Assembly: GCA_016200045.1 (NCBI GenBank)
Contig: JACQFN010000005.1
Coordinates: forward strand, 1-38,204
Direction: 5' to 3'
Source of the DNA: Nitrososphaerota archaeon
Lineage (GTDB): Archaea > Thermoproteota > Nitrososphaeria > Nitrososphaerales > Gagatemarchaeaceae
DNA: 38,204 nucleotides
Position numbers and translations under genes: made by a program
The notes under the pieces: model-generated
Seen by the model: the letters and a program-made list of their open reading frames with translations, nothing else
Told to the model about the DNA's origin: nothing
Databases searched by the model: none
Shown here: positions 30,143-34,304 of the stretch, one piece after another
Layout: the number at the start of each line of letters is the position of its first letter
Position numbering within the stretch: the first letter of the stretch is position 1

Positions 30143-31177
30143 CTACGGGTACATTCGCACCAGCGCCCTGACCTGGGCGCGCGACAGGGTGACCTTTTCG
30201 CTCCCGGGCGCCTGGACCTCGACCGAGCCATCCTTCACCGGCTCCAGAAGGAGTTTCTCCCCGACCGACTCCCCACGGGTGACGTGCATCGAGTTCAGGA
30301 AGACCGCTATGGCGTCAGGCGGGATGGCCGCTGCGTCACCCATCAGGTGCCGAAGGACCTCAAGGGTCAGAGGCCTGGTGCGGAGCCTCTTGGAGGCGGT
30401 CGGGACGAGCAGCGTGTTCCCCTCGTCGGGGCCCGAGTAGAAAGAGACCCGCTCGACGAAGTCTCCGACCGCCTTCAACACCGTTGTTCCTCGGCTCGGA
30501 AACCCAAGACCGGTGACGTCTTGGGAGGCGATCGGTTCAGTGTCATGGTGCAGACGGAGGACGTCCTTCGCTCCGTCGCCGTCCAGGGGAAGCGCGTAGG
30601 CGCCCAGCTCCGCAGCCGACGAGGCGATCTTTGAGACACGGCGAAGGACCCCGTCCTCTGCCTCCCGGGCACCGAGGGCGAAGACTGTGAGAACTGAATA
30701 TACCCTTGGCGGCCCCCTGGCGTCAATGACATGGACCCCAGGCAGTGCCGGGAGCCCCCTGAAAGTCCGCCCGGCGACCTTGAACTCCACGACCGCACTC
30801 CACCTCATAGGGATGTATCTCCAGCGGAACAGGATAGTGTCCTTGACGTGTACAACCTCGGCGACCCGTCGGAACAACGGGAGCCTTGGCGCGGCCAGGA
30901 GCCCTGCACCGAGGACGAAGAGGACCAGGCTTGAGGCCCTGCCCCCCAAGCCCAAGGCTACCAGTGAGGCCATAACCAAGATCGCACCGCCCAGTTCCCT
31001 CGCCGGCAGTCCTTGGAAGGAGGAGACCTTGCGTGACAGCAGCGGTGAGTGGTCGGCGGGTTTTTTCCTTAGGGAGAAGTAGAGATACAACACACAGCCG
31101 AAGGCTATGAGCCACGAGCCCAGGGTCATCGACATGACCAGCAGCAGGACCGCCCCCAGCTTCAGGAGCCAGCCCAT
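30143..31177 (-). CDS. unrecognised membrane protein, third gene of the HerA-like/RadB-like operon
   Basis: I do not recognise this 344-residue protein. The N-terminus has two hydrophobic segments (about 3-35), a basic loop (SLRKKPADHSPLLSRK), then two more (about 62-98), and a soluble region of about 245 residues with mixed alpha/beta character that ends YP. In the soluble part VVEFKVAGRTFRGLPALPG and VYSVLTVFALGAREAED are the most structured stretches, and no catalytic signature is visible. Its ATG overlaps the upstream stop by a single A (TGATG), so it is translationally coupled to the ATPase. It may anchor the two soluble partners to the membrane. Confidence 0.7.
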   Translation of the reverse strand: MGWLLKLGAVLLLVMSMTLGSWLIAFGCVLYLYFSLRKKPADHSPLLSRKVSSFQGLPARELGGAILVMASLVALGLGGRASSLVLFVLGAGLLAAPRLPLFRRVAEVVHVKDTILFRWRYIPMRWSAVVEFKVAGRTFRGLPALPGVHVIDARGPPRVYSVLTVFALGAREAEDGVLRRVSKIASSAAELGAYALPLDGDGAKDVLRLHHDTEPIASQDVTGLGFPSRGTTVLKAVGDFVERVSFYSGPDEGNTLLVPTASKRLRTRPLTLEVLRHLMGDAAAIPPDAIAVFLNSMHVTRGESVGEKLLLEPVKDGSVEVQAPGSEKVTLSRAQVRALVRMYP

Positions 31178-32178
31178 CAGTGAAAGCCCTCCGTGTCGAG
31201 CGTGGAGAGCGCATGGACCGAATAGTCTTCGAGGGCAGGGTGTCGCGCGACCCAGAAGGTCCTCGCGGAGCGGCTCTCCTCCCTCTCTATCTCCTCTGCT
31301 TCCCCGTTCCTCCGCGCGCCCGCCTTCGTGAGCTCGAGGGAGAACTTCGCGTCGTGCCCCAGGATTACTCCGCCGTAGGGCCGCCTATTCCAAGCCTTGA
31401 TCGGGTCTATCGAGACATGGCTGACGACGAGCACCGCGATCCCGAACTCCACGCAGAGCCTCTGCGCGTGGGAGAGGATCATGGCGAGACCCGCGCTCCT
31501 GGCCGGGAGGTCCTGAGTGCTGGGGAAGGACGCCTTGAAGGGGGCGGAAATGGAATCGTAGATGAGGAGCTTCGCGCCGGTTTCGCGGATGACCTGGTGA
31601 AGGGCCGACTGGAAGACGGGGGTCTGCCTGAGCCTGAGCTCCACCCGGCCACCGCTGGAGACCTCCTTGGACGCATCTACCCCGTGGAGGTTGAGGAGGT
31701 CTACGACGTCAGGCGTCTGCAAGACGAACACCGACGGGTCTTTGGAAGGGACTCCGACCGCGAAGTTTGGAGAGAGGATGTCGGCGATGGGCCCGAGATG
31801 GGCGTCGGTGTAGGATATGCCGAGCCTGTCGAGCGTCCCGCCTATCGCTGTAATTAGCTCCCCTCTTGTCACTCCCTTCTTCTTCCCGCCCGTCCGCGCA
31901 ACCCGTTCGAGTTTGACATCCAGGACGGAAACATCCCTTCCGAAGCGCTTGCTCATCCCTCCGAGCCTGTAGGGGACTAGGTAGCTCGAATAGGACTGCT
32001 CGGTGTCTAGCACGATGGCGCTGTGTCCGGACGCCGCGGCCGAACAGGCAGCTTGGAAGGAGAAGATGCTTTTCCCGAGGGCCTTCTCCCCGAAGATTTG
32101 GGTGATTGTCCCCGTGGCTAAACCTCCGTCAAGGAGCCCGTCCACCGCATCACACCCGGTGCGTACTCTTTCGATCAT
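31177..32178 (-). CDS. RadB/RadA-like RecA-fold ATPase
   Basis: This 333-residue protein has a RecA-type core without the N-terminal helix-hairpin-helix of RadA. TGCDAVDGLLDGGLATGTITQIFGEKALGKS includes Walker A GEKALGKS (about 30-37); AIVLDTEQSY is the strand-2 motif, KLLIYDSISAPF is Walker B (about 220), and ILSHAQRLCVEFGIAVLVVSHVS plus RPYGGVILGHDAKFSLEL are RadA/RadB-type. An insertion of roughly 70-80 residues (ADILSPNFAVGVPSKDPSVF and nearby) separates Walker A and B relative to RadB. It could be a recombination mediator or KaiC-like switch. It lies between the membrane protein and the HerA-like gene with 1- and 4-nt overlaps. Confidence 0.82.
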   Translation of the reverse strand: MIERVRTGCDAVDGLLDGGLATGTITQIFGEKALGKSIFSFQAACSAAASGHSAIVLDTEQSYSSYLVPYRLGGMSKRFGRDVSVLDVKLERVARTGGKKKGVTRGELITAIGGTLDRLGISYTDAHLGPIADILSPNFAVGVPSKDPSVFVLQTPDVVDLLNLHGVDASKEVSSGGRVELRLRQTPVFQSALHQVIRETGAKLLIYDSISAPFKASFPSTQDLPARSAGLAMILSHAQRLCVEFGIAVLVVSHVSIDPIKAWNRRPYGGVILGHDAKFSLELTKAGARRNGEAEEIEREESRSARTFWVARHPALEDYSVHALSTLDTEGFH

Positions 32179-33395
32179 CTTCTGAGCGCCTCAAGCCTCC
32201 GTCTACCCGCCTCGGTCACAGTGTACGCGAACACGCTCGGCCCGGTCCCCGAATCCTTCGGCTCCAGGATCAGGAGCCCGTCCGTGTATAAATCGTCGAG
32301 TTCGACGTTCACGTCCGCCGGCAGGAATTCTGGCGACAGGTACTGGACGAGCGACTCTCGGGTCGTCAGCGGGAAACGGTCGACCTCCTCGAGGATCATC
32401 CTCACGAGCTGAGGGTTCGATGTCCCGTGAGGCACAGGTTCCGGGGAGAGCGGGCTCCCCTCCGGGATCCAGCGGGGCACGAAGACGGTCTTGGAACCAG
32501 TCCGGTCCGACTCCATGACGAAGGAGTTGGACAGCACCGTCTGCCCAGATTCCGGGCGGATCGAATTCCAGTAGCCTCCGGAATAGAACCTGAGGCGGGC
32601 CGCGTCCCTAAGCACGGGGCTCAGGGCGTGGGGGTGCTCAGACGAGAAGACCTCGAAGAGGGGGGCCTCCAGAAGGTGCTGAAGGAGCCTGTTCCCGTGG
32701 GTGGTCCTCGGTGACGAACGGAAGATGCGATGAGCCCCTGTGACGAACACAGACCCTCCTTTGCCTCCAGACGCGTGCAGCTTGGATACGACCTTCGCTG
32801 CGAACAGGGCGACGGCGAGCTCAGCGGCCAGCGGATACGCTGCCCGGTGGAAATCCACCAGGACGTTGCCATCGGAAAGCCTTTCGAAGTTCTCGTCGTC
32901 GGCAGCGTCAAGGAGCTTGAGGGAACTGACCCGCCCCTTCAGTTTGTCCACGTAGAAGCCTCTGAAACCCTCCACCGCCCCCAGTACGTCGCAGAGCGAG
33001 GCGGGGCTGATGGTGTTGTCCTGGCCCGCCATCTTCAGGGCGGCGGAGTTGATGATGGCCTCCTCCTCGGAAGTCAGGTCGAGAGCCGCGGTATACGCGG
33101 AGGCGACTAGCTGCGCGTGCCATGGCCCAGGCTCGACGAGCCTGAAGGAGTCGTAGAGAAACGACCTGAAGTCGTAGGTGTCGAGGATGCCCGAAAGCGA
33201 CCTGACCTCCTCCCCTCCGAGGTCGAATACTATCGGACGAAGCCCCGACTCGTGCGCAGAATGTGCCGCGACCGAAGCCAGCCTGTCGGCCCTCTCGCCG
33301 AGAATGAGCGCCTTCGTTTCTCGGCCGACCGACCCGAAGCGCGCCCGCCCCGATGACTGCGAGTATCCGAGGAACGACCGGCCCGAGTCGTGCAT
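32175..33395 (-). CDS. inactivated HerA/VirB4-like P-loop protein with C-terminal winged helix
   Basis: This 406-residue protein is a weak match that I place by layout. ALILGERADRLASVAAH occupies the Walker A position of HerA/VirB4/FtsK ATPases but lacks GK[ST]. IVFDLGGE looks like their second strand, NVLVDFHRAAYPLAAELAVALFAAKVV precedes SVFVTGAHRIF, which sits where DEAH (Walker B) is expected but has TG for DE. FSSEHPHALSPVLRDAARLRF then resembles the sensor strand region. The last 75 residues (PQLVRMILEEVDRFPLTTRESLVQYLS to TVTEAGRRRLEALRR) look like a winged helix. It is probably a non-hydrolysing partner of the RadB-like ATPase. Family assignment is inference. Confidence 0.55.
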   Translation of the reverse strand: MHDSGRSFLGYSQSSGRARFGSVGRETKALILGERADRLASVAAHSAHESGLRPIVFDLGGEEVRSLSGILDTYDFRSFLYDSFRLVEPGPWHAQLVASAYTAALDLTSEEEAIINSAALKMAGQDNTISPASLCDVLGAVEGFRGFYVDKLKGRVSSLKLLDAADDENFERLSDGNVLVDFHRAAYPLAAELAVALFAAKVVSKLHASGGKGGSVFVTGAHRIFRSSPRTTHGNRLLQHLLEAPLFEVFSSEHPHALSPVLRDAARLRFYSGGYWNSIRPESGQTVLSNSFVMESDRTGSKTVFVPRWIPEGSPLSPEPVPHGTSNPQLVRMILEEVDRFPLTTRESLVQYLSPEFLPADVNVELDDLYTDGLLILEPKDSGTGPSVFAYTVTEAGRRRLEALRR

Positions 33396-33417: not shown

Positions 33418-34304
33418 CTAAAGGGCGTTGCTCACTTCAGGTCCGGACCTCAGGTCACTATGAGATGAGACGGCGAACTTCTTCCCGAGCGTCGAAAGCA
33501 TGAGCTCGACCGCAAGCTGCGCGGTATGGTTCGCCGAGTCGAGGATGGGATTTACCTCGACGAATTCAGCCGAGGTCAGCTCTCCTGACTCGTGAAGAAG
33601 TTCCATGGCCAGGTGGGCTTCCCTGTAGGTAAGTCCTCCTTTGACGGGAGTACCGGTACCTGGAGCCTCCATCGGGTCGAGTGCGTCGACGTCGAAGCTG
33701 AGGTGCACTTCCTTCACCCCGCGCCCCGCTACCTTCACGGCCTCCTTCATGACGCTCGCCATCCCCAACTCGTCGATTTCCTTCATCGTGGAAAAACCGT
33801 GACCTTCGAACGGGATAGCGCCTTCGCCTCACCTCTGTCGAAACTCCTCCCACCGACAAGTACCGTGTTAGCTTCGAGCGCCTTCGGAGATACGCCGCCT
33901 AGCTTGGAAAGACCCGGGTGGCCGTACCCTAGAACGGCGGCGAGGGCCATGCCGTGGATGTTGCCGCTCGGCGTCGTCCTGTTGGTGTTGAAGTCTGCGT
34001 GGGCGTCCACCCAAGTGAGCCCCCGCTTTCTCCCGCCTCTCGCGAGGCCGGCAGCGGTGCCGATGGAGATGCTCTGGTCCCCGCCGACAACGAGGGGGAA
34101 GGCTCCTCCTTCGATGCACGCCGAGACCTTTTCCGCAAGCAACTCGCAGGCGCCGATGATGTCCGAAAGGCACCGGGCACGCACGTCGCCCATCGGAGCG
34201 GTCGACATGTCCGAAGCCCTGATATTGCCATGGTCCGTGACATCGTGTCCGAGCTCCTCCAGCTTGTCCTCCAGCCGCGCGATGCGAATCGCGCTGGGGC
34301 CCAT
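33418..34304 (-). pseudogene. arginase/ureohydrolase, truncated and frameshifted
   Basis: Two frames together make an arginase-like protein. The first (34304 to 33783) holds MGPSAIRIARLEDKLEELG, GGDQSISIG, WVDAHADFNT and GNIHGMALAAVLG; the second (33786 to 33418) holds KEIDELGM, LSFDVDALDP and VEVNPILD. They are joined by a -1 event at a run of five T (minus strand near 33790-33798): one extra T restores VFSTMKEID. The usual N-terminal strand is missing, and upstream GGVD before MGPSAIR has no start codon. The metal-ligand histidine of GGDHS is Gln here; the other ligands (DAHAD, DVDALD, HG) remain. Three lesions make a pseudogene likely. A sequencing error or frameshifting could account for the frame change only. 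Confidence 0.8.

Follow-up and report, generated by a model that had tools for sequence, protein, structure and literature searches.

What might be done by an archaeal gene set that joins a HerA-type protein apparently deprived of its ATP site, a predicted ATPase of the RadA family and a membrane protein? The question is raised by three genes, called here P1, P2 and P3, in the window, by which we mean the whole 38,204-nt stretch of DNA, from a soil archaeon of the Nitrososphaerota, that was analysed. The genes and the features discussed below are located as follows.

32175-33395, minus strand: P1 gene, ORF of 406 aa
33276..33299, minus strand: degenerate Walker A of P1, GERADRLA, residues 33-40, read from the sequence
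32730..32750, minus strand: degenerate Walker B of P1, VFVTGAH, residues 216-222, read from the sequence
32181..32414, minus strand: C-terminal winged helix of P1, residues 328-405, from the model and weak PadR/MarR-type matches
31177-32178, minus strand: P2 gene, ORF of 333 aa
32068..32091, minus strand: Walker A of P2, GEKALGKS, residues 30-37, with GK[ST] in 25/25
31552..31569, minus strand: Walker B of P2, LLIYDS, residues 204-209, with Asp in 25/25
31417..31419, minus strand: His254 of P2, where RadA/RecA has the switch glutamine, invariant in 25/25
30143-31177, minus strand: P3 gene, ORF of 344 aa
30878..31177, minus strand: four short membrane helices of P3, residues 1-100, homologous to the anchor of a HerA-like ATPase

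The ORF coordinates bear out the overlaps of 4 nt (P1/P2) and 1 nt (P2/P3) given in the preliminary description of this DNA. Just upstream of the trio on the minus strand (33418-34304) lies an arginase/agmatinase-like gene broken into overlapping frames at 33418-33786 and 33783-34304, of which a frameshift or an assembly error is the probable cause, and EF-2 is found close to the trio in the window's genus; no RNA feature or tRNA was found in the window. A functional tie to EF-2 or other neighbours was rejected because the flanks differ among genera and orders. A viral origin was likewise rejected, as a viral scan with P2 returned Walker A stretches only, and so was a known anti-phage defence system, with 0 PADLOC hits for P1, P2 and P3.

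P1 had been read as HerA/VirB4-like in layout, with LGERADRLA at Walker A, VTGAH at Walker B and a winged helix at its end, and structure comparison upholds this reading. The AlphaFold model of P1 (pLDDT 85.8, pTM 0.73) matches DndH, HerA, VirB4 and TrwB in Foldseek (E 2.6e-8 to 2e-5, TM about 0.5), and all of the top 50 PDB matches listed, which comprise DndH, HerA, VirB4, TrwB/Cag coupling proteins and a viral packaging NTPase, lie inside the FtsK/HerA superfamily. Pfam and NCBIfam give no match save the weak C-terminal winged helix, the part of P1 that is recognisable over the whole class. Both nucleotide motifs are degenerate as described, and GK[ST] is found at Walker A in 0/26 P1 relatives, with the P-loop lysine absent from all of them. 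The Walker B aspartate is lost in all 26, whereas the glutamate is retained in some, and xEAHR is kept by some at this place; since several P1s have an acidic residue followed by A-H/N-R, the pattern fits decay from a DEAHR-like ancestor. With a model strand at residues 28-32 and a helix at 36-49, the phosphate-wrapping loop would be reduced to ~3 residues. The idea that P1 might be an inactivated copy of P2 was rejected on the indirect ground that its structural matches are of the HerA/FtsK type instead.

Profile comparison points the same way. A class-wide P1 profile aligns over residues 8-267 to the active HerA of the same lineages (E 1e-4), the degenerate Walker B falling over EEAH, and in the genome search the P1 profile reaches HerA frames on G076:C1 and G063:C4 (E 2e-4 to 4e-4), which adjoin NurA and were also picked out by the DUF87 and NurA searches. 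The P1-HerA link predicted at the sequence level is independent of the P1 model. Like the HerA of the HerA-NurA system of archaeal DNA end resection, P1 has the motor fold, the Walker B strand position and the aspartate-glycine segment after strand 2 (IVFDLGGEE aligned over IVFDLNDEY). Unlike HerA, it is without P-loop, Walker B aspartate and HAS barrel (no Pfam match at the N-terminus, where only 27 residues precede the first motor strand), and the genes next to it encode a RadA paralog and a membrane protein, not NurA. Fold and motif loss together, as judged with the help of the model, make P1 a HerA-type protein without a working ATP site. No description of an inactive HerA or of a HerA-RadA paralog pair was met in open-licence papers.

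P2 had been labelled RadB-like, which holds as far as the RadA family is concerned (Pfam Rad51, E 3.7e-19), while RadB proper does not apply: P2 scores 66 bits against an equivalog cut-off of 172.4 and belongs to a separate clade. Its scores also lie below the RadA cut-offs (70.9 vs 259 bits for PRK04301, 58.4 vs 361 for TIGR02236). In an IQ-TREE analysis of 25 P2, 11 RadA and 5 RadB-like proteins, in which long branches were flagged, the 25 P2 rows are split from all the others by a branch with 100/100 support and stand outside both the RadA and the RadB-like clades. Scores and tree rule out an ordinary RadB or KaiC; the best matches are RadA-type rather than KaiC-type, although KaiC-type matches also occur, and the RadA C-terminal signature is retained. 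An intact Walker A followed by a large insertion before Walker B had been noticed earlier, and the comparison gives its size: 172 residues separate the Walker A lysine from the Walker B aspartate in the window's P2 (168-176 over its relatives) vs 89 in the RadA of related genomes, an insertion of ~83 residues. P2 begins at the ATPase core, the N-terminal helix-hairpin-helix domain being missing. It accordingly resembles RadA, RadB and the AOA RadB-like paralogs in RecA core, Walker A and B and RadA-type C-terminal cap, and differs from them in the insertion, the histidine for glutamine, the missing helix-hairpin-helix and the clade. The archaellum ArlH-type RecA-fold regulators provide a further comparison, in that a RecA-fold ATPase stands beside a membrane protein, but P2 scores 23 bits, far under the ArlH cut-off of 215, and the operon is without ArlI/ArlJ.

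On sequence grounds, P2 is an intact RecA-fold ATPase of a new clade of the RadA family, with predicted activity. Canonical RadA and DUF87/HerA proteins are also present in genomes with the trio, so that the trio comes on top of them and does not take their place. In the window's genome RadA is encoded by a frame of 859 aa (L163 1703-4279, C24) whose Walker A site seems to be interrupted by an intein, and split RadA hits suggest a similar interruption in G013, G016 and G063.

P3 had been called an unrecognised membrane protein with a soluble domain. The two parts are confirmed by its model (pLDDT 78), with helices at 3-19, 22-36, 59-76 and 80-98, predicted to form two membrane hairpins, followed by a soluble alpha/beta region; an Arg/Lys-rich stretch between the hairpins suggests that the soluble domain is cytoplasmic. 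Neither Pfam nor NCBIfam matches P3, and its structure finds no significant match in PDB or among viral folds, nor does Foldseek find a structural relative of the soluble domain there. A strand-helix pattern hinted at a VirB4 N-terminal domain, which was rejected because VirB4 ranks only 14th, at a non-significant Foldseek E of 0.38. "Unrecognised" does not hold for the membrane half, which P3 has in common with an intact membrane-bound HerA-like ATPase. The first ~98 residues alone of the P3 profile match ~920-aa frames in several genomes of the genus (E 5e-15 to 1e-11), and profile-profile comparison of the two anchors gives E 7.4e-13, including a common GGTFSPxVF segment. Three of these frames (L165-L167) are membrane HerA-like ATPases of about 900-920 aa with GMTGSGKTT and EEAHRL. 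There the anchor and a working HerA motor are fused in one chain, while here the anchor has a gene of its own beside a dead motor, which by the logic of domain fusion argues for a P3-P1 interaction; the sequences thus hint that P3 may anchor P1.

The ~900-aa ATPase, of which no published description was found, resembles P3 in its N-terminal four-helix part and has a HerA-type motor. It differs from the trio in being one chain with both motifs intact, and its partner is a gene with a nuclease-like end, not a RadA paralog. On G016:C1 (L165 2669-7433), L166 and L167 it overlaps this ~700-aa gene, whose C-terminal GPDL..E.K pattern is like that of PD-(D/E)XK nucleases; PADLOC calls the ATPase HerA and gives no match for the partner. 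The two are possibly an undescribed membrane HerA-nuclease pair. On C19 (L168 7369-10059), the window's genome also encodes a further ATPase, of VirB4/TraC type and 897 aa long, whose motifs are intact and which perhaps comes from a conjugative element.

How widely is the trio kept? Gagatemarchaeaceae are non-ammonia-oxidising Group I.1c Thaumarchaeota, to which the MAGs SubAcS15-57, SubAcS15-15, AcS1-13, AcS1-27 and palsa_1368 have been assigned (PMC10640624); the window's family (f1), which includes relatives bearing those names, is taken here as Gagatemarchaeaceae on the strength of these names and of shared genes. P1 occurs in 32/61 genomes, all in this family and spanning all seven of its genera, and in 0/24 genomes of the order's other families. 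The pattern is the same for P2 (30/61) and P3 (31/61, including G014 and G019, where only the ~920-aa ATPase matched). Differences in presence among the three are mostly due to contig ends, and G003, which is 96% complete, is without P1, P2 and P3 alike. P1 and P2 are adjacent in 28/28 loci of the family that hold both (gaps of -20 to +1 nt), a number that includes near-identical genomes and does not represent 28 independent cases. Of the 26 loci with both P2 and P3, 24 have the two genes overlapping or abutting; of the remaining two, one has an in-frame stop and the other a 736-nt spacer. Adjacency across the family's loci indicates that the trio is not a chance arrangement, and the gene order is kept in all genera with enough sequence, and beyond. 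A third copy of the trio, its P1 and P2 broken by several in-frame stops, is seen in a contaminated MAG (G024:C66, L033 6740-8862); it is a pseudogene or an assembly error.

Co-occurrence in other Nitrososphaeria, a point raised by the preliminary description, is seen in other orders as P1-P2 pairs. The P2 profile finds full-length relatives in four families that belong to other orders of the class: those of f18, f20 and f24 score 265-307 bits and those of f19 109-123 bits. In ammonia oxidisers and a 300-genome phylum sample, P2 similarity stays at P-loop level (best 59 bits), and the trio was not found in either. In f18, f20 and f19, P2 is directly preceded or overlapped by a frame of ~400 aa that ends in a winged helix. 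Profile-profile comparison gives full-length homology to P1 in f20 (E 2e-14) and f18 (E 1e-8), and in f19 aligns the winged helix alone (E 3e-7), where the assignment rests on position and winged helix. A membrane-protein gene comes after P2 in f18, f20 and f24. That of f18 has the C-terminal pattern of P3, LSSPxI..LSxxQL...IY, at a weak E of 0.0035; no P3 homology was found in f20 by profile comparison. The one MAG of f24 has P2 and a P3-like gene with no P1 upstream, from which it follows that P1 may be dispensable. In f18 the flanks hold ELP3 and GatD/E-like genes (GatD/E names read by eye), and in f20 they hold genes for an MFS transporter and a histidine phosphatase. Downstream of the trio in two f18 genomes (L112/L160, L110/L161; G071, G061), NurA and HerA follow at a distance of 6-8 kb, past the GatD/E-like genes.

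We propose, with a probability of roughly 0.4, that the trio is a membrane-docked complex of a dead HerA-type scaffold and its own RadA-paralog ATPase, probably handling DNA. The composition of the trio is strongly supported; we infer a physical complex, its orientation, a ring, DNA as substrate and the task. P3 would insert in the membrane via its two helix hairpins and hold P1 at the cytoplasmic face. As P1 keeps the HerA/FtsK motor fold and cannot bind ATP in the usual way, it would be a structural platform, possibly still a ring, whose winged helix may grip DNA or a partner. P2, as the set's only ATPase, would drive or switch the complex through its ATP cycle. The most likely task is DNA handling at the membrane, in the sense of tethering, moving or protecting DNA in repair, segregation or uptake. 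Co-inheritance is in support, both in the joint loss of all three genes in G003 and in the P1-P2 pairs of f18 and f20; a further pair in f19 is counted by position, and the genes flanking the pair differ among f18, f20 and f19. The NurA-HerA genes near the trio in two f18 genomes speak for the proposal as well. On the other hand, winged helices bind proteins too, no conserved DNA-repair neighbours were found in Gagatemarchaeaceae, the soluble domain of P3 is without a structural relative, and the weak P3 homology outside the family and the missing P1 of f24 also count against it. It is a more doubtful proposition that the class at large has a new kind of archaeal membrane machine, in which a dedicated RadA paralog, acting in trans, powers or gates a HerA-type ring that is permanently without ATP binding.

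The winged helix of P1 could also be the functional part, with the dead motor domain merely carrying it to promoters: P1 would then be a transcription factor, P2 a KaiC/RadA-type switch and P3 a sensor of membrane or envelope. The PadR/MarR-like fold is indeed the sole P1 feature in sequence libraries and the one best kept across the class, and P2 does draw KaiC-type matches. We nevertheless hold such a membrane-linked regulator to be unlikely, because P2 is closest to RadA-type proteins and keeps their C-terminal signature, Pfam finds no sensor domain in P3, and the P3 anchor is common to a HerA-type ATPase, not to a sensor. HerA-family proteins, moreover, often bear C-terminal DNA-binding helices. 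A Rad51-paralog-like recombination mediator, in which P2 helps to load RadA with P1 as a DNA-binding cofactor and P3 as a membrane tether, would suit a RadA paralog that coexists with canonical RadA and, as is typical of paralogs, departs from it in the missing N-terminal domain and the switch glutamine. We know of no Rad51 paralog complex with a membrane protein or a HerA-like partner, however; the operon holds no repair genes and many RadA-bearing relatives are without the trio, so this is the reading to which we attach the least probability.

Matches of P1 to VirB4 and TrwB structures, together with the anchor that P3 shares with a full-length membrane HerA-like ATPase, would agree with a reduced DNA import or conjugation machine, in which P3 and P1 are a split and decayed VirB4/CedB-type ATPase and P2 supplies energy or loads incoming single strands. 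The Ced/Ted systems do import DNA with a VirB4/HerA-like ATPase (PMC9905601), and the trio resembles these and the VirB4 type IV secretion ATPases in VirB4-type motor fold and membrane association. It departs from them in its dead motor, split gene and RadA paralog partner. Such systems run on a motor that in the trio is dead, the P1 motifs being lost, and the operon has no active VirB4-like ATPase in its place; no pilin, VirB6-like or polytopic channel gene lies within the trio, and the poor rank of VirB4 among the P3 structure matches gives no help. We consider this derivation improbable.

The trio looks like an undescribed molecular machine that has long been kept together across the class. 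The analysis gives an identity to P1 and P3, both of which are unrecognised by Pfam, NCBIfam and PADLOC. HerA and RadA belong to the core DNA motors of archaea, and a long-conserved pairing of a dead HerA-type protein with a live RadA-type partner, next to a membrane protein whose anchor is joined elsewhere to a working HerA motor, would show how DNA motors come to be scaffolds. For these almost entirely uncultivated archaea, the trio offers a testable lead on membrane-linked DNA handling.
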